Of a stretch of 64,000 nt of DNA, positions 12,148 to 52,636 are shown in pieces. Position numbers and translations under genes: made by a program. The notes below the pieces were generated by a model. That model ran no database searches and had not been told where the DNA came from. It was given only the letters and a program-made list of their open reading frames with translations. Numbering within the stretch: the stretch's first letter is position 1; every line of letters starts with the position of its first letter. This stretch comes from Magnetococcales bacterium (GTDB taxonomy: Bacteria; Pseudomonadota; Magnetococcia; Magnetococcales; JADFWU01): assembly GCA_015234045.1 (NCBI GenBank), contig JADFWU010000008.1, forward strand, positions 1 through 64,000, given 5' to 3'.

Positions 12148-12174
12148 ATTGCTGGTGTGTCCGGTCTTCTATTC
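12121..12174. repeat. 27-bp tandem duplication across the cpdA stop
   Basis: Two adjacent units containing TTGCTGGTGTGTCCGGTCTT differ at one terminal base. The stop codon of the minus-strand cpdA gene lies in the second unit. This looks like a recent duplication of a terminator arm. Confidence 0.8.
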
Positions 12175-12927: not shown

Positions 12928-13024
12928 TGAATACTCCGTCCACCGATAAAGTTCTTGGTGTCCCTATGGTACAAACCCATTGACTCATACTAAAGGGTTT
13001 GCTAATTTCTGACTCTCTTTCGCT

Positions 13025-13111
13025 GCCGGGGTGGCGAAACTGGTAGACGCACCAGACTCAAAATCTGGCGTAGGCAACTACGTGCCGGTTCGACTCCGGC
13101 CCTCGGCACCA
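13025..13111 (+). tRNA. tRNA-Leu(CAA)
   Basis: An 87-nt class II tRNA. The acceptor stem GCCGGGG pairs with CCTCGGC. The anticodon loop CTCAAAA gives anticodon CAA, reading UUG. A long variable arm (typical of tRNA-Leu), the T-arm GGTTCGACTCC and an encoded CCA end are present. Confidence 0.97.
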
Positions 13112-13143
13112 AATAAGAATAAGGCAGTGAAAAGAAACTTTTT

Positions 13144-13175
13144 AAGCCAGCTATTTATTTAGCTGGCTTTTTTTG
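13144..13175 (+). terminator. Terminator after tRNA-Leu
   Basis: The stem AAGCCAGCT / AGCTGGCTT is followed by a long T tract. It ends the tRNA transcript and may also serve the convergent TolC gene. Confidence 0.85.
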
Positions 13176-13214
13176 TTTTACATATGTGGGATACGCAGCT
13201 TCCCAACAATCACG

Positions 13215-14576
13215 CTACTCACTGCCCAATGGTTCAACAATCTTCTTCAAACCACCAATCAAACCCTCTTGTTCAACTTCAGTATTTTTGATCAATGCAT
13301 CAGCACCACTCTTCTGACCTACTGCCAAATCCATACTGGCAAGCGCAGTAAGATAGCTGCTCAACGCGCCGATATAATCATTGCGCGTGCTAGTGAGTAG
13401 ATCCTGAGCGTCAAGAACATCCGTTGCTGTGCCCAACTGTTCACGATAGCGCACTTGGTTGACTCGGTAGTTCTCTACAGACTGCTCCAGGGCTTTTTTC
13501 AACACTTTGACCTTTTTATCCGCCTCTACAGCGGTCAAAAAGGCTTTTTGAACCTCCAGCATTACCGATTCAACCAATTCATCATAGGCCAGGTTATAGC
13601 TTTCAGTGGTTTGACGGGCAGCGGCCAGCTCTTCTCCGGTCTTACCCCATTCCCAGGGTGTCCATGAGGCGGACAACATCACCTTACCGGTGGTTGTACT
13701 GTCTTCATGGCTGAGATTATCCGCGCTCATGGTCATGCTGGAAGAAAGGGTGACTTTGGGATAGTAGGAATAGGCGGTAGTCTGTTCGGTCAGCTTGCCG
13801 ATCCGTTTATTGAGTTTGGATTTGTGCAGATCGGAGCGATTTTCCAAGGCAAAGTCATTGGCTTCATCAAGATCTGTCCAGATCATCGGTGTCCAGGCCA
13901 GTTCGCCTAGCGGTTCTAATTCCGTATTGAGCGGACGGCGCAACAACTGATTCAAAGTCGAACGCGCCAAAGTACGCGTATTTTCCGCTTCAATAAGCTT
14001 TTGCTCACCGCGAGCCACTTCTACTTGCGCTTGCAAAACCTCATTTCGCCAATAACGCCCTTCTTGATAAAAGGCTACCGCATTCTTTTCATGCTGTTTC
14101 AAGCGCTCAAGGGCCTCTATTGCCTCTTTATGCTTGTGGATCGACTCCAGGTAGGCGTACCACGCCGCTTTAATCTCCTGGGTCAACTGACGACCTTGGC
14201 GCACGGTCTCCAAATCGGCCTGATCTTTGGCCAATTCGGCTTTTTTCCAATTGGACCAGAGATAATTGCCCTGATAAACGGTTTGTGAAAGGGTCAACGA
14301 AGAGCTGTAACTATCCGGCTTACTGCCACCGACACTGTTATACACCGTATCACTGGCTGACGCGCTCATGGAGAGAGACGGCAACATACCCAACAGCGCA
14401 GCATTGGCCGTAGAGCGTTTACCTTGACTGGAAAGCTGTTTGGAGGCGAGGCCAAGATTTTTTTGAAAGGCGGTCTCAAGACACTGATCCAGCGTCATGG
14501 TGTCGGACAATACAGGCAGTGAAACCATACCCGAAGTTGACAAGGCTATCAGTGTTGCAACCCACTTTTTCATCAT
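13215..14576 (-). CDS. TolC-family outer-membrane channel
   Basis: This 453-residue protein has an N-terminal signal peptide with cleavage likely after PVLSD, then long helices with the alternating pattern of outer-membrane efflux proteins. The internal duplication is visible as two AATRQT/ELAAAR-type coiled segments. GGAGGGG lies next to tandem ATG codons at 14576 and 14573; the second is better spaced. It is the last gene of the export cluster, after two HlyD-type adaptors and the M50-HlyD protein, and should supply the outer-membrane exit duct. Confidence 0.9.
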   Translation of the reverse strand: MMKKWVATLIALSTSGMVSLPVLSDTMTLDQCLETAFQKNLGLASKQLSSQGKRSTANAALLGMLPSLSMSASASDTVYNSVGGSKPDSYSSSLTLSQTVYQGNYLWSNWKKAELAKDQADLETVRQGRQLTQEIKAAWYAYLESIHKHKEAIEALERLKQHEKNAVAFYQEGRYWRNEVLQAQVEVARGEQKLIEAENTRTLARSTLNQLLRRPLNTELEPLGELAWTPMIWTDLDEANDFALENRSDLHKSKLNKRIGKLTEQTTAYSYYPKVTLSSSMTMSADNLSHEDSTTTGKVMLSASWTPWEWGKTGEELAAARQTTESYNLAYDELVESVMLEVQKAFLTAVEADKKVKVLKKALEQSVENYRVNQVRYREQLGTATDVLDAQDLLTSTRNDYIGALSSYLTALASMDLAVGQKSGADALIKNTEVEQEGLIGGLKKIVEPLGSE

Positions 14577-14613
14577 TCCCCTCCAAACGCTGGTTTGTCA
14601 GGGAACGCCTGAC

Positions 14614-15444
14614 TTACCAGCTTTTTTTCAAATTGACATAACGACCGGAAAGCGCCTCCCCCTTGAGAGGCTTCACCGACCAAACCACCTGCTGCAATCC
14701 ACTGGCAGGATCAATAAACGGTAAAATCCGTTCTATGATGGCCGTGCCCACCTGTCGGCCACTATCCAAGACATCGGTTTTCATACCGGTTTTCAGTGCC
14801 AAAACCTGTTGCGGAATCAGATCCACACCTAACTGTAATGCCGAAGTATCAGCAAGCTCCAAAACCGGTGTGCCCGCACCAATCCACTCACCCATATTGC
14901 TGGTAACCAGTGCGACAACACCATCAAAAGGCGCTTTCAGACGACAACCGTGCAGATTGGCCCGCGCCGTATCAATATCCGCCTGAGCCAATGTCACCGC
15001 TATCTTTGCACTGCGGATTGTATACTCCACTTCTTTTAGAGCCATATCGGACACAATGCTCTCTCCCTTTAGCCTTTGTGTCTTAGCTTTTTCGTGTTCA
15101 GCCTGTTCCAGACCCAATTTTGCGTTGGCATGACTGGCTTTAGCCTTTACCAGTGCAACACGAGCAGAACTTTCATCGACCCGCGCAATAATCTGACCTT
15201 TTTTGACCAACATGCCTTCCCGAGGCAATTCGGTAATGACACCGGTTTGACTGAAACTCAGTTTGGATTGCTGAATCGGCATCACAACACCGCGAAGATG
15301 GGCTGTCATCTCTTCCGCATGCACCAGACCCGGTGAAAACAGGAGGAGACCCGATGAAAAAACCAGAGACAAACCGGTCATAAAAAGCACCCATCGACTC
15401 GCCCATGCTTTATTGTTCTGCGCTTTCATAATCAATCCCATCAT
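14614..15444 (-). CDS. HlyD-family periplasmic adaptor
   Basis: This 276-residue protein begins at an ATG that overlaps the stop of the M50 gene (ATGA). It has an N-terminal signal or anchor helix (RWVLFMTGLSLVFSS), then a barrel-sandwich half (KLSFSQTGVITELPREGMLV), a coiled-coil hairpin rich in Ala/Lys/Glu, and the closing lipoyl half RLKAPFDGVVALV. It is shorter than most HlyD proteins, lacking a full membrane-proximal domain. It probably bridges the inner-membrane component and TolC. An in-frame start upstream at 15498 lies inside the M50 gene and is less likely. Confidence 0.87.
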   Translation of the reverse strand: MMGLIMKAQNNKAWASRWVLFMTGLSLVFSSGLLLFSPGLVHAEEMTAHLRGVVMPIQQSKLSFSQTGVITELPREGMLVKKGQIIARVDESSARVALVKAKASHANAKLGLEQAEHEKAKTQRLKGESIVSDMALKEVEYTIRSAKIAVTLAQADIDTARANLHGCRLKAPFDGVVALVTSNMGEWIGAGTPVLELADTSALQLGVDLIPQQVLALKTGMKTDVLDSGRQVGTAIIERILPFIDPASGLQQVVWSVKPLKGEALSGRYVNLKKSW

Positions 15445-17522
15445 ATCCACAGATCGGCCCGGAACATCTGCCGAATTGGTCTTACAATATGTTTCCACAG
15501 CGGTTGCGGGTCACCCAGAATCTTAACCCGTCCGGTCAACTCCACAGGCGGTGGATCAACCTGTTCAGGAATCTCCAAAGCAACCCGCACTTGAAACAGC
15601 CTCTTTGGTCCCTCTGCTTTGGCAACCGGTGTCACACCTTGTACCACACCATGGAATACACGCTCACCCACGCCCGTCAACTGAACAACCGCCCTGTTTC
15701 CCTCTTCTACCAGAGAAAGATCAGCCTGTTCAAGCAGTACCGATATCCCACGCTTACGGCGTGGCATCAGCTTTAACACCTCTTCACCCGGTCCAACGTG
15801 GCGACCTTCCATGATGACCGGCGGCGGTCCATAGACCAACCAATCGCCATCGGGGACCGTCATTTCAAGCCGTTTCATTCGGGCATTGATTGAGGCCAAC
15901 TTCTCTTCCACAGTACGGCTTTGAATCATGGAGTGACGAAGAGTGCGAGGATCTCGAATGGCATGTGCACCCATCTGATCAAGATCCAACCCCGCCCGTT
16001 GGGCGATGAGCTGGCTCTTTTCCAACGCCATATCCGGCGATTGAATCACAAACAACACACCACCCGGCCCATAGGTCAAGCTCCGATCATCCTGATAGCC
16101 AACCTGTGTGACAAACCCGCCTTCAGAGGCATGGATTGACACCATTTCGGCATCCACGGCCCCTTCTGTGACAATAGAAATTGGTGGCTTATAGAGAAAC
16201 AGAGCGGCAACAAAACAACCAAACAATACGCCACTGACAATTTTACGTTTGACAGAGGAGAAGAAGAATTTCACGATCAACTCCTTGAATGTACCTGGCC
16301 AAGTACCCAACAATAGCCGGGCAACTTTTAAAATCAAAAACAGAAACAAAATGGCCGGAAAGGTGCCCATGCCATCCGCCACCATGCCATAGACCATCAC
16401 CGCCAATCCCGACAGCATCAGTGTCAGATAGGTAACCGTCAATCCACCATAGGTGAGATAGACCCGTTTCTCTCTCGGTGAAGGATGAAGTGGTGCTTCA
16501 GCTTCTAAACGAAATATCTTTGTTTTTAAAGAATAAGAAAACCAGGATATTGCATTTTCACGAAGGTTCGGAACCTCCAACATATCGGCTAATATATAGT
16601 AACCGTCAAACTTCATCAGTGGATTTAGATTCATAAAAAGCGATGACGCGGTACTGATACACATCAGAATAAAACAGATCATTCCAACCGGATTATCAGA
16701 ATCTACCAGCACCCAGATAAAAGCCGCAAAAGCGCCCAGAATCATCTCAAACCAAACGCCCGCCAACGCCACATAAATCTTATGTCTATTCTCTTCAAAC
16801 AACCACGCATCGTTGACGTTACAGTAAAGACAGGGATTGAATGCCAGAAGCAAAAATCCCATCTCATCCACATCACCGCCGTAGTGCTTACAGGTCAACC
16901 CATGCCCGACCTCATGTAGCGCGATGGCACCCAAAGCGACGATCCAAACACCCATGAAGCCCCAAAGGCCACTTTGTGATTGGAAAAAAACCCGCTCCAG
17001 GTCATTGATGAATCGATCACCCTGTGACACCACCACCAGGATTGCCAACGCCATTAAGACGAACGTGGCACGCACCCCCCAAGGTGACCAAATCCAGCGG
17101 AGTTTATCAATGATACGGTCAAACAAAGCATTGGGATCAACAAGCTTGAAACGCATGTGCAACAATGAGCCTTGACGCTGAAGGCGCATGCCTTTGCGAT
17201 CAGACTTGAGCTTTTCCATCAAAGCCGCATTGCGCTCCTTACGTGACCGTTCCAACAAGGTGTTATCACGTGCCGAGTTGAGCAGTTCGTCCAAGGCTTC
17301 CATATCATAGGCGTACTCATCACTCGCCTTATCAAACGCATCAATTAACTGCTCTTTGCTCCGCTGTCCATCAAACAGCGTCATCATCAGATATTGTGGT
17401 TCATCAAACCGGAAATAAGCGCCCTTTTCCGGCTCTTTGAGAATGTAGAATGTCTCACCACGCTGGGTGATCTTTCTCATTTTCAAATCATTGCGTAAGG
17501 CTGGCGGTGACTCTTCAGACAT
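15441..17522 (-). CDS. PqqD/M50 site-2-protease-like/HlyD membrane protein
   Basis: This 693-residue three-part protein starts with about 100 residues resembling a PqqD-like peptide-recognition fold (YFRFDEPQYLMMTLFDG). The middle is a polytopic membrane domain with the M50 zinc motif HEVGH (His203, Glu204, His207) and a third ligand region NPLMKFDGYY (Asp306). About the last 240 residues form a periplasmic HlyD-like adaptor domain (PISIVTEGAVDAEMVSIHA). The zinc ligands and the glutamate are all present, so proteolysis is possible. The HlyD end suggests instead, or as well, a role in moving substrate to TolC. It shares an operon with the two adaptors and the TolC gene. Confidence 0.88.
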   Translation of the reverse strand: MSEESPPALRNDLKMRKITQRGETFYILKEPEKGAYFRFDEPQYLMMTLFDGQRSKEQLIDAFDKASDEYAYDMEALDELLNSARDNTLLERSRKERNAALMEKLKSDRKGMRLQRQGSLLHMRFKLVDPNALFDRIIDKLRWIWSPWGVRATFVLMALAILVVVSQGDRFINDLERVFFQSQSGLWGFMGVWIVALGAIALHEVGHGLTCKHYGGDVDEMGFLLLAFNPCLYCNVNDAWLFEENRHKIYVALAGVWFEMILGAFAAFIWVLVDSDNPVGMICFILMCISTASSLFMNLNPLMKFDGYYILADMLEVPNLRENAISWFSYSLKTKIFRLEAEAPLHPSPREKRVYLTYGGLTVTYLTLMLSGLAVMVYGMVADGMGTFPAILFLFLILKVARLLLGTWPGTFKELIVKFFFSSVKRKIVSGVLFGCFVAALFLYKPPISIVTEGAVDAEMVSIHASEGGFVTQVGYQDDRSLTYGPGGVLFVIQSPDMALEKSQLIAQRAGLDLDQMGAHAIRDPRTLRHSMIQSRTVEEKLASINARMKRLEMTVPDGDWLVYGPPPVIMEGRHVGPGEEVLKLMPRRKRGISVLLEQADLSLVEEGNRAVVQLTGVGERVFHGVVQGVTPVAKAEGPKRLFQVRVALEIPEQVDPPPVELTGRVKILGDPQPLWKHIVRPIRQMFRADLWI

Positions 17523-17582
17523 GAATCATCTCCACGCTGCGCCACGATACATCTTCTGTCAACAGAGCTGCCGTCACCCGTC

Positions 17583-20231
17583 TCATCCACCAAACCAGAA
17601 GGCGTAGACATTGACAACACGCCGCCAAAGTCGGGTGATCACCGAGATATCCGGCGTATCAATAGAAGCCTGCCCCGTCATACCTGGCCGTAAAACCACA
17701 TCACTTTCAGTAACCGTCACCTCAGCGGCAAATCCTTCTGGTGCCTCGGGATCAACAACCCCCTCTTCCAGGGCTTGAACCGGCACGGAATAGGCCCGTC
17801 CGACATGACGCACCACACCACGGAACCCTTGACCAGGACGAGAACGCAACACACCACGTACAGCACTTCCGATGGAGACATCCAGAAGTTCTTCTTCCGG
17901 CACTTCAACCACAACGGTAAACTTCTCAGCATCACCCAGGCGCAACACTTCAGAACCCAGTGAAAACTCTCGCCCGATCAAATCCGCAGGGCTGGCGGTC
18001 AACACAACACCACCTGCCGGAGCACGAACCATGATTTTTTCCAACTCATCCCGTACCTGACGTACTTCAGCACGGGCGGCCACACGTTCCACCATTGATC
18101 GACTCATAGCCGCAGGATCACCAGCGGCTTTGGCTTCAACAATCTGTCGATCCAACACGTTCAACCGCGCTTCGGCTTCGATCAGTTTCAAGCGAATTGG
18201 TGTATCAGCCAACTGTACCAGCAAATCACCTTTGCTGACCTTCTGGCCTTCCTTAACCAACACCTTATCCACACGACCAGCCACCGGAAGATAAACGCCC
18301 TGACCAAACCGCGCTTCAACAGTACAAGGACCGGAAACCGCCCGAAAAATTGGTAGATAGTGCAAAGCAGAGCCAATACCGCCTACAAGAATCAGAGCCA
18401 GCGCAATCTTACGCCAACCGGATAACATGCTCTTGCCTTTTTCACCAACCGCACCCAACACCTGACCAAACGGAATGCGTTGAAACAGACTGGCATTACG
18501 CAACGCAACCGTTGCCTGAGTGGCCAGGATGTAGAGCATATCCGCTTTACTGCCCCGAGCAAAATCCAGCTCAACGCCTTCCAGCCAGAGCACACCAAGA
18601 ATACCTTCTTCATCGGCCAGAGGTGTACACCAAGCGGCTTTCAGTTCATTGCGATCCAGATAGCGTGTCCAGGTATTTTCACCGCCGTCTACAGTCTCGC
18701 GATATTGGTTGATGTTGGCCACATAGGCCGTGCGCTTGGATTGGCGGACCTGCTCCATTATTTCGAGTAGATCTTTTTGATTCTCATCCTTGGCATTAAC
18801 CGTCCGACCATTGGAGAGCACGGCGATGGACATTTCATTTTTCTGTTCATCAATCAACGCCACCGCAGAGCTACTGACATCCACCAACTCGTCCGTGGTA
18901 TTCACCAACTGAGTCAACACCATATCCAGGTCCAACGTACCAACCACTTGCTGAGAGATGGCCATCAAGGTGTTCATCTCTTTTACCCGGCTTTCAGTCT
19001 CCAATAGGCGGGCATTGCGTACCGCAATGGAGGCGGAAAGAGCCAGATCCTCAACCAGACGGCGATCCTCTTCGGTGAACTGCTTAAAAAGGCCACTGCT
19101 TTTATTGATGATCTGGATGGCACCGAAAGCATCTTCTTTATCCACCAGCGGCACACAGATCATCGACTGCGTGCGAAAACCGGATTTTTTATCCACCTGA
19201 GCATCGAAACGGCTGTCTTTGGAACAGTCTAGAACCACTTCCGCTTCATTGTTCTCGATCACCTGACCGACAATACCTTTGCCCGGCGGAAGACGCAGAC
19301 CGATAATCCGATCTTTAGCCGGACCTTCTGCCAAATGGCAGATATTCTGTTGTTCCCGATCATCGGCCATCCAGAGCGAACCCGCTTCCGCTTCCAAAAC
19401 ATCCAACACCCGATAGAAGATGACATCCATCACCTTCTTCATACTGCCGGTGCTCTGGACAAATTCTCGGGTCAAATCGCGGGCAAATGTGAGGTTTTTA
19501 ACCAACTGTTGATGAATGGCCAGTTGGTGGAACAGATCCTGTTGATCTTCAGAAAGGTTTGAGATATCAACAGGATTTTTAGGAGAAACTGACGCTTTAG
19601 GCGCATTCTGAACCGCTTGAGCCGGAGAGACTGACGGTTTAGGCGCACTCTGAATTGCTTGAGCTGGAGTCGAAGACACTGGTGCTGTCTTAGATGCGGT
19701 TACAGCGGTATTATCACCCTTAGACGCTGCAATAGCCGCTGCCCTTTTAGCCGCCATACCAGGTCGAGCAAGAGGCCCTTTTCTTGTTGATGCAGTCTGA
19801 TTTTTCGTTGATGCGGCCTGACTTTTCGTTGATGCGGTCTGACTTTTCGTTGATGCGGTCTGACTTTTCGTTGATGCGGTCTGATTTTTCGTTGATGCGG
19901 TCTGAGCAGGTTTTGCCCCCACCACACCACCACGCCGCGCTTTAGCCGATGCCCCTTTACTGGCACCCACGGCTGAAGTTGATTTGCGCTGAACAGAAAC
20001 AGCTTTGCGCTTTTCTGCCATTGCCCGCTTATTCTTCAAGGCATTTTTCTTCATGGCCATTGATTGACCCATGGAAGCACCACCTTGAAAGCGCTTTGGT
20101 GCATTTTTCATCACGGCTGAACGACTGCTTTTTTCAGTACTTCTATCGGCATCATTGGCAGAAGATTGACCAGAAATCTGGGTATCTTGCCGAGCCTGAC
20201 CCTCACTGTTTTGCATTACAGGCCCCGTCAC
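17583..20231 (-). CDS. GAF-GAF-HlyD fusion protein
   Basis: The protein has 882 residues from a GTG at 20231; an ATG at 20216 is equally possible. The first 215 residues are low-complexity, basic and Ala/Lys/Ser/Thr rich, with about six heptad repeats such as TASTKSQ. Two GAF domains follow (about 240-395 and 415-575), with typical PPGKGIVGQVIENNE and GAIQIINKSSG strings. Then come one membrane helix (IALALILVGGIGSALHYLP) and a periplasmic adaptor domain with lipoyl halves VYLPVAGRVDKVLVKEGQKV and IMVRAPAGGVV. The topology puts the GAF sensor in the cytosol and the adaptor in the periplasm, so substrate-coupled control of export is plausible. Its ligand is unknown. Confidence 0.87.
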   Translation of the reverse strand: MTGPVMQNSEGQARQDTQISGQSSANDADRSTEKSSRSAVMKNAPKRFQGGASMGQSMAMKKNALKNKRAMAEKRKAVSVQRKSTSAVGASKGASAKARRGGVVGAKPAQTASTKNQTASTKSQTASTKSQTASTKSQAASTKNQTASTRKGPLARPGMAAKRAAAIAASKGDNTAVTASKTAPVSSTPAQAIQSAPKPSVSPAQAVQNAPKASVSPKNPVDISNLSEDQQDLFHQLAIHQQLVKNLTFARDLTREFVQSTGSMKKVMDVIFYRVLDVLEAEAGSLWMADDREQQNICHLAEGPAKDRIIGLRLPPGKGIVGQVIENNEAEVVLDCSKDSRFDAQVDKKSGFRTQSMICVPLVDKEDAFGAIQIINKSSGLFKQFTEEDRRLVEDLALSASIAVRNARLLETESRVKEMNTLMAISQQVVGTLDLDMVLTQLVNTTDELVDVSSSAVALIDEQKNEMSIAVLSNGRTVNAKDENQKDLLEIMEQVRQSKRTAYVANINQYRETVDGGENTWTRYLDRNELKAAWCTPLADEEGILGVLWLEGVELDFARGSKADMLYILATQATVALRNASLFQRIPFGQVLGAVGEKGKSMLSGWRKIALALILVGGIGSALHYLPIFRAVSGPCTVEARFGQGVYLPVAGRVDKVLVKEGQKVSKGDLLVQLADTPIRLKLIEAEARLNVLDRQIVEAKAAGDPAAMSRSMVERVAARAEVRQVRDELEKIMVRAPAGGVVLTASPADLIGREFSLGSEVLRLGDAEKFTVVVEVPEEELLDVSIGSAVRGVLRSRPGQGFRGVVRHVGRAYSVPVQALEEGVVDPEAPEGFAAEVTVTESDVVLRPGMTGQASIDTPDISVITRLWRRVVNVYAFWFGG
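19784..19905 (-). repeat. 21-bp tandem repeats coding Thr/Ser/Lys heptads
   Basis: About six units of roughly 21 bp, each encoding a heptad such as TASTKSQ or TASTKNQ, lie in the N-terminal tail of the GAF-HlyD protein. Near-identity between neighbouring units suggests recent slippage expansion. The tail is likely disordered and cytoplasmic. Confidence 0.8.
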
Positions 20232-20273
20232 TCTCTACCCCCCCGATGGTCCGAACGTTCCCAATATAAACAA

Positions 20274-20375
20274 GCGTTACGCAATTGCCAGTTGAAACAG
20301 GTGCCAGTTGAAACAGGTGCCAGTTGAAATAGGTGCCAGTTGAAACAGGCACAAAATTCATTCAACTGCGTAACA
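20274..20375. repeat. MITE-like element, copy B with internal tandem 16-mers
   Basis: The ends are GCGTTACGCAATT and TTCAACTGCGTAAC, so the element lies in the reverse orientation to copy A. Its left part is four tandem copies of a 16-bp unit, GCCAGTTGAAACAGGT, derived from the sub-terminal part of the element. It sits between the small basic gene and the GAF-HlyD gene, immediately upstream of the latter, where it may affect that gene's expression. Confidence 0.75.
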
Positions 20376-20429
20376 CCGAATAAAAATAAATATCAATAGA
20401 TTTTATACTCATATACCTCCTGATACAAA

Positions 20430-20470
20430 AGAAAAGCCTGGCATGCTCATCAAATCAGCATGCCAGGCTT
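20430..20470 (-). terminator. Terminator after the 48-residue gene
   Basis: The perfect 13-bp stem AGCCTGGCATGCT / AGCATGCCAGGCT is followed on the minus strand by TTTTCTTTTG. It ends the transcript of the small basic protein and probably separates it from the downstream GAF-HlyD operon. Confidence 0.85.
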
Positions 20471-20487
20471 GGCTCGGTTCAAAACTC

Positions 20488-20634
20488 TTAGGAATCAGAA
20501 GAGGTGCGCGGCTTTGGACGGCTCATCAGATGCTTAATTTTCTGAGCTTGAGCATGTGCCTGAGCCTGCTTCTTTTGCAGATTGGCTTTGTTACGAGCTG
20601 CATCAACTTTAGCGGAATTCGGTTTACCTGCCAT
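20488..20634 (-). CDS. Small basic protein, 48 residues
   Basis: AAGGAG lies six nt before an ATG that opens a 48-residue, strongly basic, Ala/Gln/Lys-rich protein with the core NKANLQKKQAQAHAQAQKIK. It is probably one long helix and has no signal peptide. It sits between the giant repeat protein gene and the GAF-HlyD gene, with its own terminator. I do not recognise a family. It may be a chaperone or partner of the very acidic giant protein, or a nucleic-acid-binding peptide; both are inference. Confidence 0.7.
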   Translation of the reverse strand: MAGKPNSAKVDAARNKANLQKKQAQAHAQAQKIKHLMSRPKPRTSSDS

Positions 20635-20656
20635 TGTTACTCTCCTTGAAGATGAT

Positions 20657-20684
20657 CCCGCTCCCTCGTGGCATGGGGAGCGGG
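20657..20684 (-). promoter_or_regulatory. Stable hairpin in the leader of the 48-residue gene
   Basis: The perfect stem CCCGCTCCC / GGGAGCGGG lies about 20 nt before the start codon and just upstream of its ribosome binding site. It has no T tract. It may protect or set the 5' end of a processed transcript. Confidence 0.45.
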
Positions 20685-20738
20685 TTGTGATTAGTGCAAA
20701 CATTGTATGAGCGAGGAACAATTCCAACACTCTGATTA

Positions 20739-20767
20739 CCATGAGATCCACACTGAGGATCTCATGG
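20739..20767 (-). terminator. Hairpin just after the giant gene
   Basis: The perfect 11-bp stem CCATGAGATCC / GGATCTCATGG lies 17 bp after the giant gene stop. No T tract follows on the minus strand, so it may stabilise the 3' end or partly terminate rather than act as a strong terminator. Confidence 0.5.
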
Positions 20768-20783
20768 GAAAACAACTGATTGA

Positions 20784-23700
20784 CTACTGAACTTCATTCC
20801 CATCAACATCCCAACTGGTGGTTGTGCCTTCAGGGTCTGTAAAGGAACTGGAACCATCAGCGTTCCAACGCCAGGTACCGGTATCATCGGTCCATGAGCT
20901 GGAACCATCAGCATTCCAGGTTGAAGTGCCGTATGAATCAGACATGCTGCCTGAACCATCGACATTTGATGTGTAGGTGTAATCACCATCCGCACTGGTA
21001 TAGACATAGTTACCGTCAGCATCCCAGGATTCGGTGGTGCCATCCGTATAGGTAACGCTATCGGAACCATCAGAACCGTAGGTGTGAACCGTTCCATCAG
21101 CATCGGTATGAACCACAGTTCCATCGTCAAGATAGGCATCCGTAGAACCATCAGGATTGGTCACTTCACCCGCTGTGTCATCCATAACCACTTCGTTGCC
21201 ATCGGCATCGAAGTAAGTCCGGTTGCCTTCACTATCCCATACTTCAGAGGAACCATCGGCATAGTTGATTGCACCGGAGCCATCCATGTTGCTGTATCCG
21301 CTGCTACCATCGGCATTCATCCAGTTGGCTGAACCGTCAGCGTACCAGGAACCAGAGGAACCATCCTCAGAGTACCAGCTACCGGAACCATCAGCGTTCC
21401 AGTATTCACTGTTACCCATGCCATCAGACCAACCACCAGAGCCATCAGCATTTTCATACTGATAGGAACCATCGGCGTTCCATTCACCATAGGAACCATC
21501 GGAACCGCTCCAGCTTCCGTTGCCTTCAGCATCCCAGGAGCTGGTGTTACCCATGTCATCGGAATACCAGCCGGAACCATCCGGGCTATCACCATATGAG
21601 TAACCATCACTCTCATAGGTGTGATTGCCTTCAGCGTCCCAGGACTCGGTAGAGCCATCAGGATAAGTTACCTCACTTGATCCATCAGGATGCCAGGTAT
21701 TGGTTGTTCCATCCACATCCACATGTGCGGAGGAACCGTCTGCATACCAGATATCTTGAGAACCATCCTCATTGACATACTCACCGGTCTCGAACTCCGA
21801 GGGCGGAATCTCGTTACCAGCCGCGTCGGTATAGCTCATATTGCCATCAGCATCCCAATTCATGGAACTACCGTCAGCATAGGAATGGCTTCCACTGCCA
21901 TCCATGTTCCAAGTGCCTGATGAACCATCGGCATCGGTCCAGGAACCGTTACCTTCCGCATCCCAGGTAGAGCTTGCACCGTCAGCATTGGCCCAAGAGC
22001 CGGAGCCGTCAGCATTCCAGGTTTCGCTGGAACCATCAGCGTATTGAATGGAACCGTTGCCTTCAGCGTCCCAGGTTTCGGTGGTGCCATCCGCTGAGTT
22101 ATAGGTTCCGCCACCATCTGAATCCCAGGAACCGGAATTCCCTTCAGCATCCGACCAGTTACCAGAGCCATCGGCATTCCAATATTCACTGGAGCCATCG
22201 GCCATGTACGACCCGCCAGAACCATCAGCACTCCACCAGGAGCTGTTGCCCTCGGCATCACTCCAACCGCCAGAGCCGTCAGCACCGCCGTAGGAGTACG
22301 AACCGTCATCGCTCCACATGCTGTATGAGCCATCCGTTCCGTGCCAGGAACCGTTGCCTTGGGCATCCCATTCTGATGTGCCATAGTCATCGACATAGCT
22401 GCCGGAACCATCCACATTTTCAGTATAGGAGTAGTTATCACCATTGTAGGTATGGTTGCCTTCAGCGTCCCAAACTTCCGAAGTACCGTCTGTGTACTCA
22501 ACGACAGACGATCCATCAGCATGCCAGGTGTGCGCCGTGCCATCCGCGTCAACATGAGCGGAAGAGCCATCGGCAAACCAGATATCCTTGGAACCATCCT
22601 CGTTTACATACTCACCGGTTTCAAATTCCGAAGGCGGAATGTCATTGCCGGCCGCATCGGTATAGGTGGTATTGCCTTCAGCATCCCAGTTCATGGATTC
22701 GCCATCGGGGTAGGTATAGCTGCCGCTACCATCGATATTGTACGAACCTGAAGAACCATCGGAACCGGTCCAAGTACCGTTTCCTTCGCTATCCCAAGAA
22801 CTGGAAGAGCCGTCTGGACTGTTCCAGGAACCCGAACCATCCGCATTCCACGTTTGGCTGGAACCATCAGCGTAGTCGATTGAACCGTTGCCTTCACCAT
22901 CCCATGTTTCCATGGTGCCATCGGCTGAATTGAAGGTGCCGCCACCATCAGTGTCATAGCTGCCGGAGTTTCCGTAGGGATCACTCCAATCACCGGACCC
23001 ATCAGCGTTCCAGTTCTCAGAGTAGCCGTCAGAACCGTAGAATCCACCGGAACCATCGGCATTGGTCCAACTGCTGTTGCCATCGGCATCATACCAACCA
23101 CCAGAGCCATCAGCATTCAACCAACTACCGGAACCATCGGCATTCCATTCGCCGTAGGAACCGTCTGAACCACTCCAGGAGCCGTTACCTTGTCCATCCC
23201 AGTCAGACGAACCGTAGGAATCAGAGTAACTACCAGAACCATCGACATTTTCAGTATAGGAGTAGCCGTCACCGTTATAGGTGTGATTGCCGTCCGCATC
23301 CCATGTCTCAGAAGAGCCATCAGGATAGGTAACATCACTTGATCCATCAGGATGCCAGCTATGTGTGGTGCCATCGGGATCTACATGAGCGGATGAGCCA
23401 TCAGCAAACCAGATATCCTTGGAACCATCTTCGTTGACAAACTCACCGGTTTCGAACTCCGAAGGCGGAATATCATTACCCGCTGCATCGGTGTAGCTCA
23501 TATTGCCTTCTGAATCCCAGCTCATGGTCTCGCCATTCGGGAAAGACTCACTGCCGGAACCATCGGCATTCCATGTTCCGCTGGAACCATCGGCATGGTT
23601 CCAGGAACCATTACCATCCGCATCCCATTGGGCACTTGAGCCGTCACCGCTATCCCAGGAACCGGAACCATCGGCATTCCAGGTCTCAGAAGAACCATCA

Positions 23701-26700
23701 GCCCAGGTTATTGAACCGTTGCCCTCACCATCCCAGGATTCTGAACTTCCGTCTGCATTATTGAAGGTGCCACCACCATCAGCGTCATAGCTGCCGGAGT
23801 TTCCATTGCTGTCACTCCAATCACCTGAGCCATCGGCGTTCCAGTTTTCATAGTAGCCATCAGCGCCATAGAAACCACCGGAACCATCGGCATTCCAGTA
23901 GCTGCTATTGCCTTCAGCGTCATACCAACCGCCTGATCCATCAGGATTGGCCCAGTTGCCGGAACCGTCCGCATGCCAGTCAGAATGAGAACCATCGGCA
24001 CCATTCCAACTACCATTACCCTGACCATCCCATTCGGAAGAGCCGTATGAATCGGAGTAACTGCCAGAACCGTCTACATTCTCGGTATAGGCGTAGCCGT
24101 CACCGTTGTACGTATGGTTACCATCGGCATCCCAGGTTTCGCTGGTGCCATCTGGATATTCAACTGCGCTTGATCCATCAGGATGCCAGCTATGAGACGT
24201 TCCATCCGGGTCAACATGAGCGGATGAGCCATCAGCAAACCAGATATCCTTGGAGCCATCTTCGTTAACAAACTCACCGACTTCGAAATCTGAGGGCGGA
24301 ATATCGTTACCCGCCGCATCGGTGTAGGTCATAGTGCCTTCGGCATCCCAGTTCATGGTCTCACCGCCAGGGAAAGACTCACTACCGGACCCATCGGCAT
24401 TCCATGTACCACTGGACCCATCAGGATTGGTCCAAGAACCGTTGCCCTGACCATCCCAATCAGCACTGGCACCATCAGGAGCGGTCCAGGAACCAGAACC
24501 ATCGGCGTTCCATGTCTCGGATGAGCCGTCAGCCCAGCTTATTGAACCATTGCCCTCACCATCCCATGCTTCAGAAGTACCATCCGCATGGTTGATGGTT
24601 CCACCACCATCGGTATCATAGCTACCGTAGCTGCCGTCAGAGTCGTACCACTCACCGGAACCATCGGCGTTCCAGTACTCGCTGGAACCATCCGAGTTAT
24701 ACATACCGCCGGAACCATCGGACATCCACCAGCTACTGTTACCATCCGCGTCATACCAACCGCCGGAGCCATCCGCATTTTGATAGTTACCGGAGCCGTC
24801 CGCATTCCATTCACCGTAGGAACCATCCTCACCATACCAGGCACCATTGCCTTGACCATCCCATTCGGAAGAACCATAGGCATCGGAGTAACTGCCTGAG
24901 CCGTCTACATTCTCAGTATAGGCGTAGCCGTCACCGTTATAGGTATGGTTGCCATCGGCATCCCATGTTTCGCTGGTGCCATCGGTGTATTCAACTTCTG
25001 ATGATCCATCAGGATGCCAGCTGTGAGTGGTTCCATCCGGGTCCACATGAGCGGAAGAGCCGTCAGCAAACCAGATATCCTTGGAACCATCTTCATTGAT
25101 GAACTCACCGGTCTCAAACTCCGAAGGCGGAATTTCATTACCAGCGGCATCGGTGTAAGAGCTGTTGCCTTCGGCATCCCAATTCATGGATGTGCCATCA
25201 GGAAAATGCTCACTGCCGGAACCATCGGCATTCCATGTACCACTGGAACCATCAGGATTGGTCCAAGAGCCGTTGCCCTGACCATCCCAATCAGCGTGTT
25301 CACCACCAGCACCTGTCCAGGAACCCGAGCCATCAACATTCCAGGTCTCGGAAGCACCATCCGGCCATGTTATTGAACCGTTTCCTTCAACATCCCAAGT
25401 TTCGGTCGTACCATCAGCATGGGTTATTGAACCGCTGCCATCCGCTTCATAGTTGCCGAAGCTACCATCAGAACTGTACCAGGAACCGGAACCATCGGCG
25501 TTCCAGTATTCACTGGAACCATCTGCGCTGTACATGCCGCCGGAACCATCCGCCTGCCACCAGCTGCTGTTGCCTTCAGGGTCATACCAACCGCCGGAAC
25601 CATCGGAGTATTGATAGCTGCCGGAACCGTCAGCATTCCATTCGGAATAGGAACCATCGGCACCGGTCCAGGAACCGTTGCCTTGAGAATCCCATTCGGA
25701 ACTGCCGTAGGTGTCAGAATAGCTACCTGAGCCATCAACATTATCCGTGTAGGAGTAGCCATCACCGTTATAGGTGTGATTGCCTTCTGCATCCCAGGTT
25801 TCACCGGTTCCATCTGGATTGACCACTTCTGTCGATCCATCAGGATGCCAGCTATGGGTTGTGCCATCAGGGTCTACATGAGCGGAAGAGCCATCAGCAA
25901 ACCAAATATCCGTGCTGCCATCCTCATTGGTGAATTCACCAACGCTAAATTCTGAGGACGGAATCTCATTTCCGGCCGCATCGGTATAGGTCACGTCACC
26001 TTGGGCATTCCAGCTTTCCGTAGAACCATCAGCGTGGTTATAACTACCACTACCATCGGCATTGTAGGTGCCTGATGTACCATCGGAGCCTGTCCAGGTA
26101 CCGTTACCCTCAGCATCCCAGGTAGAACTGTTACCATCCGCATCAGCCCAGGAACCGGAACCATCGACATTCCACGTCTCTGTGGAACCGTCAGACCAGG
26201 TTATTGAACCATTTCCTTCAGCGTCCCAATTCTCGGTGGTGCCGTCAGCATGAGTTATCGCGCCACTGCCATCGGCTTCATAGTTGCCGTATGAGCCATC
26301 AGGATCACTCCAGGAACCGGAACCATCACTGTTCCATGATTCATAGTGTCCATCAGAACTATAGAAACCACCGGAACCATCAGAGTTCCAGTATTCACCG
26401 TTGCCTGCGCCATCGTACCAACCACCGGAGCCATCGGAATTGGCCCAGTTACCGGAACCATCGTTGTTCCATTCACCATACGACCCATCAGAGCCGAACC
26501 AAGCACCATTGCCCTGCCCGTCCCACTCAGAGGTACCATAATCATCGGACCAGCTGCCGGAACCATCGACATTTTCGGTATAGACGTAGTTGTCACCATT
26601 ATAGGTGTGATTGCCTTCTGCATCCCAGCTCTCGCTGGTGCCATCGGAATACTCAACTTCGCTTGATCCATCGGGATGCCAGCTGTGGGTTGTGCCATCG

Positions 26701-29414
26701 GTATCTACATGCGCGGATGAACCATCGGCGTACCAGATATCCTTGGAACCATCTTCGTTGATATACTCACCGGTCTCAAACTCAGAGGGCGGAATTTCAT
26801 TACCAGCGGCATCGGTGTAGGAGACGTTTCCTTCTGCATCCCAATTCATGGATGTGCCGTCAGGAAACCGCTCACCGCCGGAACCGTCAGCATTCCATGT
26901 ACCGGTTGATCCATCGGGATGACTCCAGGAACCATTGCCCTGGCCGTCCCATTCAGCATGTTCGCCATCAGCACCGGTCCAGGATCCTGAACCGTCCATA
27001 TTCCATGTCTCAGTGGAACCGTCAGACCATGTGATGGAACCGTTGCCTTCAGCGTCCCAGGTTTCACTGCTACCATCAGCATTTGTTATGGAACCACTGC
27101 CGTCAGCCTCGTAAGAGCCGTAGCTACCATCTGAGCCATACCACTGACCAGAGCCATCGGAATTCCAATATTCACTGGAACCATCCGCATTGTACTGACC
27201 GCCGGAACCATCGGCATTCCACCAACTGCTGTTGCCATCAGCATCCGACCATCCGCCAGAGCCATCCGCACTGGTCCAGGAGCCGGAACCATCGGCATTC
27301 CACTCTCCATAGGAGCCATCTGAACCACTCCAGGAACCGTTACCTTGGCTGTCCCATTCAGAGGTGCCGTAATCATCACTCCAACTACCGGAACCGTCTA
27401 CATTTTCGGTGTAGCTGTAACCATTGCCGTTGTAGGTATGATTGCCTTCAGCATCCCAAGTTTCACTGCTGCCATCAGTGTATTCAACTTCACTGGAACC
27501 ATCGACATGCCATGTATGTGTTGTGCCATCTGCATCAACATGGGCGGATGAGCCATCAGCAAACCAGATATCCTTGGAACCATCTTCATTAATGAACTCA
27601 CCGGTCTCAAATTCTGAGGGCGGAATTTCGTTACCCGCAGCATCAGTATAGGCTGTATTGCCTTCGGCATCCCAATTCATGGATGTACCGTCAGGAAAGC
27701 TCTCTGAACCGGAACCATCAGCATTCCAAGTACCGGTTGATCCATCGGGATTGCTCCAGGAGCCGTTTCCCTGCCCATCCCAGCTCGCAGAAGAACCATC
27801 GGAACCGGTCCAACTACCAGAACCGTCCACATTCCATGTTTCACTGGAACCATCGGCCCAGGTTATGGACCCATTGCCTTCAGCGTCCCAGGATTCGGTC
27901 ATACCATCCGAACTGGTGAAGGAACCACTGCCATCACTGTTCCAGGTTCCGCTGTTGCCTTGCCCATCATCGTAGGAGCCTGAACCGTCCGCACTCCAGC
28001 TCTCGGTATACCCATCAGAGCCGTAATACTGTCCGTTGCCTTCCGCATCCCACCAGCTGGAACTTCCGTCCGATGAGGTCCAGTTGCCAGAACCGTCAGA
28101 GTTGTTCCAAGAGCTGTTACCATCTGAATCCCATGTACCATAGGAACCATCGGTTCCCGCCCAGGTTCCACCGCCCTGACTATCCCAAGTGCTCGTGCCG
28201 TAGTCATCGGAAAAGGTGCCAGATCCATCCAGGTTTTCGGTATAGGAGTAGTCTTGACCTTCGTATGAATAGTTACCCTCAGAATCCCAGTTTTCGGACG
28301 TTCCATCCGGATAATCAACGCTGCTTGAACCATCGGGATTATAGGTGTGGGTTGTGCCGTCTGCATCGGTATGTGTGCTGGTGCCGTCTTCTGAATAGGT
28401 ATCAACAGAGCCATCATCATTGGTTACTTCGTAGGCTTCTGGATTGTCTGCAACAGTGCCATCAGGATCAGTGACAGTCATGTTGCCGTCAGAATCGTAG
28501 CTCTCTACTGTGCCATCGGGATATGTCGTGGCGCTGGAACCATCTGCGTTAATTTCAGAAGTGGTGCCATCAGTGGCTGTCCAAGTACCGGAGCCATCGG
28601 CATTAAAGGTACCGGATGAACCGTCAGCATTGGAGACTGTTCCGGAACCATCTTCGTTGTATGTTCCGCTGGAACCATCCGCTTCAGTCCAAGTGCCTGA
28701 ACCATCTGCATTGAATGTACCGGAAGAACCATCCGCATTGGTGTAGGAACCGTTTCCTTCTCCATCCCAAGTGGATGTTGAACCGTCCGTACCGTTGAAG
28801 TTACCGGAACCATCTTCGTTCCAGGTCTCGGTGGACCCATCTTCATAGGTGATATTGGTAGACCCATCTTCACCTGTTTCCATGGTCATACCAGTATCAT
28901 CGGCACCGGTATCATCACCCTCAGTGGTGGTCGTATCTGTAGTATCCGTGCCGGTAGTATCCGTGCCGGTAGTATCCGTGCCGGTAGTATCCGTGCCGGT
29001 AGTGTCCGTGCCGGTAGTGTCCGTGCCGGTAGTATCCGTGCCGGTAGTGTCCGTGCCGGTGGTATCCGTGCCGGTGGTATCCGTGCCGGTGGTATCCGTG
29101 CCGGTGGTATCCGTGCCGGTGGTATCCGTGCCGGTGGATGTATCATCCATATCTTCAGGAGGCGGAGGCGCATCAGAACCGGAATCATCCGGCGGTGGTG
29201 GTGCATCACTACCGGTATCACCGCTTGATGAAGGCGTATCCGTAGAAGCATCACCAGTCACATCGGAAGTCCCAACTTGAGAAGCGGCATCAGCCGCCGC
29301 ATCAGCTGCTTCAGCGGCGGCGGCTAATTCACTGCCACCGATCATCGCTGGCGCGATACGATCTTCAAGTTGCTCAACTTTTTTAGAAACGACTTTTTTC
29401 TTTTCCTTGGCCAT
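20784..29414 (-). CDS. Giant acidic DG/Trp-repeat protein, probable exported surface protein
   Basis: The protein has 2876 residues from the ATG at 29414, which has GGAGG five nt upstream; an earlier ATG at 29426 would overlap that site. The N-terminus is Lys-rich and carries QLEDRIAPAM, similar to the LEPR-type motif seen at the start of many very large bacterial surface proteins. Next come an Ala-rich segment, a Pro/Asp/Gly-rich segment and 13 tandem five-residue Thr/Gly/Asp units. From about residue 190 to the end the protein is made of short units such as NADGSGSWTGSDGSS, organised in 277-residue super-repeats. It is very acidic, rich in Gly, Ser, Asp and Trp/Tyr, and I see no cysteine. 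DxDGxG strings could bind calcium. It has no classical signal peptide. The adjacent TolC/HlyD/M50 genes are its likely export route. Confidence 0.88.
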   Translation of the reverse strand: MAKEKKKVVSKKVEQLEDRIAPAMIGGSELAAAAEAADAAADAASQVGTSDVTGDASTDTPSSSGDTGSDAPPPPDDSGSDAPPPPEDMDDTSTGTDTTGTDTTGTDTTGTDTTGTDTTGTDTTGTDTTGTDTTGTDTTGTDTTGTDTTGTDTTGTDTTDTTTTEGDDTGADDTGMTMETGEDGSTNITYEDGSTETWNEDGSGNFNGTDGSTSTWDGEGNGSYTNADGSSGTFNADGSGTWTEADGSSGTYNEDGSGTVSNADGSSGTFNADGSGTWTATDGTTSEINADGSSATTYPDGTVESYDSDGNMTVTDPDGTVADNPEAYEVTNDDGSVDTYSEDGTSTHTDADGTTHTYNPDGSSSVDYPDGTSENWDSEGNYSYEGQDYSYTENLDGSGTFSDDYGTSTWDSQGGGTWAGTDGSYGTWDSDGNSSWNNSDGSGNWTSSDGSSSWWDAEGNGQYYGSDGYTESWSADGSGSYDDGQGNSGTWNSDGSGSFTSSDGMTESWDAEGNGSITWADGSSETWNVDGSGSWTGSDGSSASWDGQGNGSWSNPDGSTGTWNADGSGSESFPDGTSMNWDAEGNTAYTDAAGNEIPPSEFETGEFINEDGSKDIWFADGSSAHVDADGTTHTWHVDGSSEVEYTDGSSETWDAEGNHTYNGNGYSYTENVDGSGSWSDDYGTSEWDSQGNGSWSGSDGSYGEWNADGSGSWTSADGSGGWSDADGNSSWWNADGSGGQYNADGSSEYWNSDGSGQWYGSDGSYGSYEADGSGSITNADGSSETWDAEGNGSITWSDGSTETWNMDGSGSWTGADGEHAEWDGQGNGSWSHPDGSTGTWNADGSGGERFPDGTSMNWDAEGNVSYTDAAGNEIPPSEFETGEYINEDGSKDIWYADGSSAHVDTDGTTHSWHPDGSSEVEYSDGTSESWDAEGNHTYNGDNYVYTENVDGSGSWSDDYGTSEWDGQGNGAWFGSDGSYGEWNNDGSGNWANSDGSGGWYDGAGNGEYWNSDGSGGFYSSDGHYESWNSDGSGSWSDPDGSYGNYEADGSGAITHADGTTENWDAEGNGSITWSDGSTETWNVDGSGSWADADGNSSTWDAEGNGTWTGSDGTSGTYNADGSGSYNHADGSTESWNAQGDVTYTDAAGNEIPSSEFSVGEFTNEDGSTDIWFADGSSAHVDPDGTTHSWHPDGSTEVVNPDGTGETWDAEGNHTYNGDGYSYTDNVDGSGSYSDTYGSSEWDSQGNGSWTGADGSYSEWNADGSGSYQYSDGSGGWYDPEGNSSWWQADGSGGMYSADGSSEYWNADGSGSWYSSDGSFGNYEADGSGSITHADGTTETWDVEGNGSITWPDGASETWNVDGSGSWTGAGGEHADWDGQGNGSWTNPDGSSGTWNADGSGSEHFPDGTSMNWDAEGNSSYTDAAGNEIPPSEFETGEFINEDGSKDIWFADGSSAHVDPDGTTHSWHPDGSSEVEYTDGTSETWDADGNHTYNGDGYAYTENVDGSGSYSDAYGSSEWDGQGNGAWYGEDGSYGEWNADGSGNYQNADGSGGWYDADGNSSWWMSDGSGGMYNSDGSSEYWNADGSGEWYDSDGSYGSYDTDGGGTINHADGTSEAWDGEGNGSISWADGSSETWNADGSGSWTAPDGASADWDGQGNGSWTNPDGSSGTWNADGSGSESFPGGETMNWDAEGTMTYTDAAGNDIPPSDFEVGEFVNEDGSKDIWFADGSSAHVDPDGTSHSWHPDGSSAVEYPDGTSETWDADGNHTYNGDGYAYTENVDGSGSYSDSYGSSEWDGQGNGSWNGADGSHSDWHADGSGNWANPDGSGGWYDAEGNSSYWNADGSGGFYGADGYYENWNADGSGDWSDSNGNSGSYDADGGGTFNNADGSSESWDGEGNGSITWADGSSETWNADGSGSWDSGDGSSAQWDADGNGSWNHADGSSGTWNADGSGSESFPNGETMSWDSEGNMSYTDAAGNDIPPSEFETGEFVNEDGSKDIWFADGSSAHVDPDGTTHSWHPDGSSDVTYPDGSSETWDADGNHTYNGDGYSYTENVDGSGSYSDSYGSSDWDGQGNGSWSGSDGSYGEWNADGSGSWLNADGSGGWYDADGNSSWTNADGSGGFYGSDGYSENWNADGSGDWSDPYGNSGSYDTDGGGTFNSADGTMETWDGEGNGSIDYADGSSQTWNADGSGSWNSPDGSSSSWDSEGNGTWTGSDGSSGSYNIDGSGSYTYPDGESMNWDAEGNTTYTDAAGNDIPPSEFETGEYVNEDGSKDIWFADGSSAHVDADGTAHTWHADGSSVVEYTDGTSEVWDAEGNHTYNGDNYSYTENVDGSGSYVDDYGTSEWDAQGNGSWHGTDGSYSMWSDDGSYSYGGADGSGGWSDAEGNSSWWSADGSGGSYMADGSSEYWNADGSGNWSDAEGNSGSWDSDGGGTYNSADGTTETWDAEGNGSIQYADGSSETWNADGSGSWANADGASSTWDAEGNGSWTDADGSSGTWNMDGSGSHSYADGSSMNWDADGNMSYTDAAGNEIPPSEFETGEYVNEDGSQDIWYADGSSAHVDVDGTTNTWHPDGSSEVTYPDGSTESWDAEGNHTYESDGYSYGDSPDGSGWYSDDMGNTSSWDAEGNGSWSGSDGSYGEWNADGSYQYENADGSGGWSDGMGNSEYWNADGSGSWYSEDGSSGSWYADGSANWMNADGSSGYSNMDGSGAINYADGSSEVWDSEGNRTYFDADGNEVVMDDTAGEVTNPDGSTDAYLDDGTVVHTDADGTVHTYGSDGSDSVTYTDGTTESWDADGNYVYTSADGDYTYTSNVDGSGSMSDSYGTSTWNADGSSSWTDDTGTWRWNADGSSSFTDPEGTTTSWDVDGNEVQ
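21089..28430 (-). repeat. 831-bp (277-residue) higher-order coding repeat
   Basis: One anchor string in each unit (TTGTGCCATC or a close variant, read on the plus strand) recurs at 28352, 27521, 26690, 25859, 25028, 24197, 23366, 22535 and 21704. A second anchor (GGCGGA or a one-base variant) recurs at 27619, 26788, 25957, 25126, 24295, 23464, 22633 and 21802. Every step I checked is 831 bp, so units have diverged by substitution without net indels. A truncated, divergent last unit follows towards 20784, with its anchor at about 21089 (615 bp on). Confidence 0.9.
28941..29136 (-). repeat. 15-bp tandem repeat (Thr/Gly/Asp linker)
   Basis: Thirteen head-to-tail copies of a 15-bp unit (AGTATCCGTGCCGGT with A/G and G/A variants, read on the plus strand) encode TGTDT-type pentapeptides in the giant protein. 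It is probably a flexible linker between the N-terminal motif and the repeat body. Copy number is likely to vary between strains. Confidence 0.9.
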
Positions 29415-29426
29415 CGTAGCCTCCAT

Positions 29427-29938
29427 ACAAACATCGTGAGATTAATTATTCAGCGCTGTTTTGGATGCCAAACGACCGTTACTGTCCCCAAAGAAGGTCC
29501 ACAGTAGTTCTCCTCAAAGAAAGCAATACAATTTTATAAAAGCCATTTAAACGCATTCCGCATTCTTGAACAGACGGATTTCTGTTTATGACTGGCTTAA
29601 ATTTATCAACAAAACAGGGGAATACAACAGGATCAGGGGGTTTGATCCTTAAAACAGGAGAGAGGGGTTATCCGAACCAGAGAAGCGACATATTCAAGAA
29701 ATCCCTTTGAAACGAAATAACATCAGCCAGACTTCAGGAAAAGCACCGAAGCGGCTAACCAAAACGCCAAACAACGGCGTTGGTCGTTACTATAGCCAGA
29801 CTTATACCCCCCGTTCAAGATAAAAATTACCATACATAAAAAAAATACACGTGCTCTACATATTTTACATAATCTGGACAGCCCAATTCAGGGCGCATCG
29901 CCCACAGCCAACCGGACGCACAAAGAACCAGTCGGATA
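29427..29938. other. Non-coding region upstream of the giant gene
   Basis: About 510 bp separate the giant gene from the amidohydrolase gene; both lie on the minus strand, so this region should hold the giant gene's promoter. I see TATAAAAT on the minus strand near 29535 as a possible -10 box without a good -35 partner. A short inverted pair AACGCC / GGCGTT lies near 29768-29785. No gene is visible. Confidence 0.45.
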
Positions 29939-51229: not shown

Positions 51230-51315
51230 GCCCGCGTGGCGAAACTGGTATACGCTGCGGACTTAAAATCCGCTGGTCCTAGACCGTCCCGGTTCAAATC
51301 CGGGCGCGGGCACCA
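51230..51315 (+). tRNA. tRNA-Leu(UAA)
   Basis: An 86-nt class II tRNA. The acceptor stem GCCCGCG pairs perfectly with CGCGGGC. The anticodon loop CTTAAAA gives anticodon TAA, reading UUA. A long variable arm, the T-arm GGTTCAAATCC and an encoded CCA are present. Confidence 0.97.
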
Positions 51316-52578: not shown

Positions 52579-52603
52579 GCGATTCCATTTAGCTGTTTGA
52601 AAT

Positions 52604-52636
52604 AAAAAAAGCCGTCCTTTAGGACGGCTTTTTTTT
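52604..52636 (+). terminator. Terminator after the cold-shock gene
   Basis: The stem AAAGCCGTCCT / AGGACGGCTTT with loop TT is followed by a long T tract, and preceded by an A tract that could serve the convergent cheW transcript. Confidence 0.9.

Follow-up and report, generated by a model that had tools for sequence, protein, structure and literature searches.

The window analysed here, a stretch of 64,000 nucleotides (nt) of contig JADFWU010000008.1 from a Magnetococcales bacterium (GCA_015234045.1), carries at 13215-29426 on its minus strand the genes for a giant repeat protein and for GAF-HlyD, M50-HlyD, HlyD and TolC proteins, all of which are confirmed as real genes. We judge it fairly probable that this cluster is a dedicated system for the leader-guided maturation and export of proteins with a LEDR leader, chiefly one giant beta-rod. 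Several lines of evidence support this: co-occurrence of M50-HlyD and GAF-HlyD, the distribution of the leader, the adjoining repeat protein, the folds of the models and the invariant protease residues. Further support comes from LEPRIAPA giants encoded after M50-HlyD in Verrucomicrobia, from giants with LExR N-termini in several phyla, and from daptides, whose leader is taken off by an intramembrane peptidase that depends on an RRE, a recognition element of ribosomally synthesized and post-translationally modified peptides (RiPPs) (PMC10036551). The original prediction named these five genes as neighbours on one strand, and coordinates, order and profile matches agree with it; a sixth gene, which it did not list, lies between the giant and GAF-HlyD genes and encodes a basic protein of 48 amino acids (aa). 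The features are as follows.

20784-29426, minus: giant repeat protein, 2880 aa (PF07202, 241.7 bits)
29334-29369, minus: leader core LEDRIAPAMIGG, giant residues 20-31, after the Lys-rich N-terminus
20488-20634, minus: conserved basic protein of 48 aa that accompanies DGS-repeat proteins
17583-20231, minus: GAF-GAF-transmembrane-HlyD protein, predicted inner-membrane adaptor with cytosolic sensor domains (profiles; its orthologs and those of M50-HlyD share the same ten genomes)
15441-17522, minus: M50-HlyD, with RRE head, site-2 protease and HlyD adaptor tail (profiles, model)
17244-17516, minus: RRE/PqqD-like head of M50-HlyD, residues 3-93
16311-17156, minus: site-2 protease domain of M50-HlyD, residues 123-404
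16902-16916, minus: HEVGH zinc motif of M50-HlyD, residues 203-207, invariant in 76 homologs
15483-16193, minus: HlyD/MacA-like adaptor tail of M50-HlyD, residues 444-680
14614-15444 (alternative GTG start 15498), minus: HlyD periplasmic adaptor with an N-terminal hydrophobic segment (TIGR01730, 129.8 bits, cut-off 94.9)
13215-14576, minus: TolC-family outer-membrane channel (TolC/OEP; PF02321, 152.6 bits)

The cluster had been predicted to have no ATP-binding cassette (ABC) ATPase, and no gene with a Walker A and a signature motif was flagged anywhere in the window; a resistance-nodulation-division (RND), major facilitator superfamily (MFS) or MacB pump is likewise absent from 12169-31087.

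The linkage was compared across 48 Magnetococcia genomes, among which the window's own genome is the only representative of its genus and family. Ten of them carry an M50-HlyD ortholog with 51-62% identity, some copies of which are broken at contig ends. In genome G002, a fragment of 104 residues with 48% identity, possibly an eleventh ortholog, lies where a contig ends and was left out of the count. Exactly the same ten genomes hold the GAF-HlyD ortholog. The LEDRIAPA pattern is found in eight of the ten cluster genomes versus none of the 38 others (Fisher p = 1.2e-7, only a guide as the genomes are related and non-independent), and a reversed control pattern gives no match. Seven of the ten loci have the repeat protein, or its visible end, beside the machinery: it lies upstream in two (the window and L053) and downstream in five (L047, L049, L050, L051 and L052). 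Retention of the linkage despite altered gene order argues for a functional tie between the repeat protein and the machinery. Conserved linkage in other genomes, the point on which the original prediction had been staked beforehand, is thus found both in the co-occurrence and in the distribution of the leader.

Four cluster genomes encode a second, unrelated protein of 229-310 aa that starts with a LEDRIAPA-type leader. In genomes G029 and G030, which do not have the window-type cluster, the DGS-repeat bodies are leaderless; G026 and G032 encode a leaderless repeat protein alongside a leader-bearing one. This distribution indicates that it is the leader, not the repeat body, that tracks the cluster; on sequence grounds, the leader is modular. 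The number of GAF domains varies among the GAF-HlyD orthologs (L048, 5821-8988; L052, 11840-14401), and matches to the window's GAF region are repeated in G003 and G019. The nearest named relatives of the window's M50-HlyD are from Magnetococcales metagenome-assembled genomes and Candidatus Magnetaquicoccus inordinatus.

M50-HlyD was modelled from 76 homologs with a mean predicted local distance difference test (pLDDT) score of 90.9; a Foldseek search with the whole model retrieved adaptors only, and VIA-align then revealed the head and the protease. The head, in which three strands are followed by three helices, resembles RREs whose solved structures include a bound leader peptide (5v1v, Z 10.1, 85/88 residues, root-mean-square deviation 3.5; 6jx3, Z 10.0). 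Its profile matches are TfuB1, PqqD and TbiB1, and the PqqD model matches 24 of 64 heads at E-values up to 1 (best, 3.9e-9). The head precedes the first membrane helix, which suggests that the leader would be recognized in the cytosol. Residues 123-404 resemble the site-2 proteases SpoIVFB and mjS2P (8vjl, residues 131-318, Z 9.9; 3b4r, Z 9.8). As H203, E204 and H207 of the HExxH motif and the distal D306, all in membrane helices, are invariant in 76 of 76 homologs, proteolysis is probably needed. Among family models, the M50 part scores best against that of the daptide intramembrane protease, NF041824 (188.3 bits, below the cut-off of 300); judged by sequence, the M50 part is a relative of this family outside its curated membership. 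Residues 444-680 resemble the MacA, AcrA and EmrA adaptors (best Z 13-16). Model and profiles together bear out the predicted combination of an M50-like protein with a PqqD-like head and an HlyD tail.

In the giant protein, the leader (QLEDRIAPAM at residues 19-28) is followed by a TGTDT/Pro-Ser-Asp-rich linker and then by 277-residue super-repeats in strict register, which are built from DGS units of about nine residues (Tcp10_C/G-box like); the 205 DGS-type motifs are spaced mostly by nine residues. The protein contains no cysteine, has a net charge of about -553 and gives no match to the nonapeptides of repeats-in-toxin (RTX) proteins. The predicted absence of a Sec signal is corroborated by hydropathy, since no Sec-like hydrophobic stretch occurs in the first 70 residues (best 19-residue mean, 0.85). 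The description of the N-terminus as LEPR-like holds for the presence of the motif, but the LEPR-XLL model gives no match to the leader, which is instead an LE(D/P)RIAPA variant. A single super-repeat unit is modelled with high confidence (pLDDT 93.7) as a long meander of short strands and has relatives in the CPAP/TCP10 G-box, in OspA and in MORN-type sheets. If the units run on unbroken, the giant would be a long acidic rod, presumably located at the cell surface.

The gene for the 48-aa basic protein is preceded by a good ribosome-binding site, and its product has no LEDRIAPA-type leader. This gene follows both leader-bearing and leaderless repeat proteins; the leaderless ones of G026 and G032 are likewise trailed by a small basic gene. 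In G030 and G029 (L189, L190, L196, L197), the companion is an in-frame C-terminal fusion to the leaderless DGS-repeat protein, and a gene with a GAF-like match adjoins the fusion. Such a natural fusion suggests direct contact between the basic companion and the repeat protein. Because the basic protein accompanies repeats with or without the leader and is fused to them in two genomes, it probably binds the acidic repeats, as their partner rather than that of the exporter. The idea that this gene encodes a part of the export machinery is doubtful on the same grounds.

In the export system proposed here, the RRE head of M50-HlyD would bind the LEDRIAPA leader on the cytosolic side, and the membrane-embedded site-2 protease of the same protein would remove it. 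M50-HlyD, GAF-HlyD and HlyD would form, with the TolC-family channel, a tripartite-type conduit to the cell surface, and GAF-HlyD might sense a cytosolic signal and gate or assemble this conduit. As the window branch has no dedicated ATPase and a related branch has a shortened SecA, the likeliest motor would be housekeeping SecA or some other force supplied in trans.

Among SecA matches in Magnetococcia that were judged non-housekeeping, 35 of 39 have an M50-HlyD gene no more than 3 kb away; three of the remaining four end at contig edges (L177, L178, L179), and L180 resembles housekeeping SecA. The Walker motif is retained in 24 SecA paralogs from across phyla; almost all of them stop close to the position of residue 655 in the window genome's housekeeping SecA and lack the wing domain, the two-helix finger and the tail. 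In a tree of M50-HlyD (quick method, midpoint root), all 27 SecA-linked loci fall into one set of 43 rows with 99% support, and the window falls into the SecA-less remainder of 38 rows, where SecA absence is less sure for loci with short flanks. No SecA paralog is found in window-type loci, and four genomes with the window-type cluster that are 99-100% complete (G001, G003, G012, G032) have a single SecA_DEAD protein, the housekeeping SecA; a SecA paralog was thus rejected as the motor of the window-type cluster. The window's own genome has one SecA paralog, in a separate cluster of the sister branch (L013, contig C108, 2498-4516). In this locus and in L056, L057, L060, L061 and L063-L065, the gene for a SecA paralog of ~660-700 aa lies directly downstream of M50-HlyD and overlaps it, an arrangement known in principle since 2015 (PMC4452313).

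M50-HlyD relatives occur in 45 of the 48 Magnetococcia genomes at E-values up to 1e-20 and, outside the class, in Planctomycetota, Verrucomicrobiota, Fibrobacterota and Proteobacteria. Giants with LExR N-termini adjoin M50-HlyD in several phyla; in Verrucomicrobia (L077, L090), two LEPRIAPA giants come directly after it. LEPR-XLL giants adjoin M50-HlyD in Neptunomonas, Magnetococcia and Verrucomicrobiota, with NF012209 scores of 20.0 (L057), 31.2 (L128) and 18.8 (L103) at a cut-off of 17 bits. In Neptunomonas and Neptuniibacter (L127-L129, L138), giants of up to ~2500 aa with LEPR(I/V)MLSAD N-termini lie beside GAFH, M50-HlyD and HlyD; these cultured Oceanospirillaceae are tractable hosts. The window genome has further M50-HlyD clusters on contigs C89 and C37, and on C117 a second SecA-less one (L015, 8219-17816) with a 1198-aa LEPRLMFDGA giant containing DUF4347.

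The original prediction regarded clusters of this kind as known but without an assigned mechanism. Loci with a secondary SecA_DEAD, M50-HlyD, GAF-HlyD and HlyD, with or without OEP, had already been published as an ABC-less, type-I-related module with a proposed secretion-related role, in which SecA is shortened and the M50 protein was proposed as the pore; their broader role was termed completely unknown at that time, and the excerpted text of that report names no substrate, leader or RRE head (Kamneva, Poudel and Ward, 2015; PMC4452313). A SecA-type locus of Methylobacterium extorquens AM1 is among those it describes. The window shares with the excerpted description M50-HlyD, GAF-HlyD, HlyD and OEP and the lack of an ABC gene, but the defining secondary SecA_DEAD is missing, and in the tree the window lies outside the SecA-bearing set. 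Our search of the open-access literature returned no description of the SecA-less branch, of the linked cargo and its modular leader, of the RRE head or of the basic companion. The kind of locus is therefore already known; what is new is the cargo, the modular leader, the RRE head, the SecA-less subtype and the basic companion gene.

Other known systems resemble parts of the cluster. Daptide MpaP is an RRE fused N-terminally to a site-2 protease and removes the leader of ELExMEAP-motif peptides (PMC10036551; NF041824). Of the designs studied so far, this one is closest to that of M50-HlyD, and the ELExMEAP motif recalls QLEDRIAPA, a likeness that is suggestive only; however, the HlyD tail and the TolC partners are outside the NCBI model (379 positions), and the daptide cargo is a small peptide, whereas that of the window is a giant protein. 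Tripartite efflux pumps (MacAB-TolC, AcrAB-TolC, EmrAB-TolC) share the adaptor fold, seen in the M50-HlyD tail and in HlyD, and a TolC-family channel, but have an RND, MFS or MacB pump where the window's membrane part is a protease. As in type I secretion (HlyB-HlyD-TolC), the window has an HlyD-type adaptor, a TolC-type channel and a cargo without a Sec signal. The type I secretion signal is C-terminal. In the window, by contrast, the putative signal is N-terminal, the ABC transporter is missing and the cargo lacks RTX repeats, which are common but not obligatory in type I substrates. LEPR-XLL (NF012209) and Planc_extracel (PF07595) proteins are also very large and also have a short LE(P/D)R motif close to the N-terminus, although the LEDRIAPA leader lies outside both models. 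Accessory SecA2 systems also use an extra SecA-type ATPase for special cargo, a likeness that applies to the sister branch only; the sister-branch paralogs are shortened (~residue 655) and coupled to M50-HlyD, and the window has none.

The inner-membrane step is the point at which other explanations diverge. An ABC exporter encoded elsewhere might carry the giant across the inner membrane after the cluster has recognized, trimmed and handed it on. The window genome does have seven ABC_membrane matches, one of them a C39-peptidase ABC exporter and another an ABC protein encoded beside an HlyD gene. We regard such a split-locus type I system as unlikely, since window-type loci have no ABC gene and a motif search of 91 M50-HlyD loci flagged one (L080 of Brevifollis gellanilyticus, 634 aa). 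The C39-ABC exporter, on contig C102, was rejected as a conserved partner because it has no close ortholog in other genomes of the class (best match, ~33% identity). It is similarly improbable that housekeeping SecA and SecYEG bring the protein to the periplasm, with the cluster only trimming it and moving it across the outer membrane. The near-complete cluster genomes whose only SecA is the housekeeping one, and the SecA paralog of the sister branch, would fit such a route, but the giant has no Sec-like signal peptide, the position of the RRE head suggests cytosolic leader recognition, and the sister-branch paralogs lack the parts that engage SecY.

The similarity of the M50 part to the daptide protease, even at a score below the family cut-off, could also point to regulated proteolysis or a RiPP-like pathway, in which M50-HlyD processes small peptides, HlyD/TolC exports them and the giant is a cytosolic neighbour. 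This appears very improbable, as leader-bearing proteins range from 229 to 2880 aa and the leader tracks the cluster, no RiPP-modifying enzyme was recognized among the scanned neighbour genes, and the product of the small conserved 48-aa gene has no leader. Chance or hitch-hiking adjacency without a functional tie is hardly credible. Flanking genes beyond the cluster are not common to the related genomes, as such adjacency would allow, but the occurrence of two components in the same ten genomes, the association of the leader with them and the linkage kept as gene order changes contradict it, and conservation in other genomes excludes chance.

Leader-guided export by the cluster itself is thus the reading we prefer, and several points weigh against it. 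The cluster encodes neither a motor nor a translocon, so that the inner-membrane step is its weak point, and other ABC exporters of the window genome could act in trans. The usual substrates of site-2 proteases are membrane-spanning segments, which the LEDRIAPA leader lacks. The N-terminus of the giant matches neither NF012209 nor PF07595. The leaderless repeat proteins of G026 and G032 imply that the repeat body need not be exported. Experiments on any member of the family were not found in the open-access literature searched.

More broadly, and only tentatively, the cluster may exemplify an ABC-independent mode of protein secretion in Gram-negative bacteria, in which the fusion of RRE, site-2 protease and HlyD serves as cargo reader and inner-membrane gate and giant proteins are exported through leader recognition of the RiPP type. 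Two kinds would exist, one with a shortened-SecA motor and one, as in the window, with no dedicated ATPase. Given a leader-defined cargo, a predicted leader-binding domain on a membrane protease and leader-bearing versus leaderless relatives, a direct test of the mechanism would take just one peptide and one protein. The loci described in 2015, left without a cargo or role in the excerpted text (PMC4452313), now have a candidate cargo, and a purpose may thereby also emerge for the LE(P/D)R-type N-termini that giant proteins carry in several phyla.

Start-stop overlaps had been predicted in the adaptor part of the cluster. This applies to the M50-HlyD stop and the HlyD start, which overlap in an ATGA at 15444-15441, but the remaining intergenic gaps within the machinery are 37 and 60 nt. 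The giant and GAF-HlyD genes are 552 nt apart, with the 48-aa gene inside this interval, and a 16-bp tandem repeat (TGCCAGTTGAAACAGG, four copies, 20260-20350) lies directly upstream of GAF-HlyD. Two tRNA-Leu genes are located on the plus strand, at 13025-13111 (CAA), immediately past the 3' end of the oppositely oriented TolC gene, and at 51230-51315 (TAA). A match to the Rfam cspA thermoregulator (87.6 bits) at 52186-52636 on the plus strand spans a 76-aa cold-shock-like open reading frame at 52348-52578.
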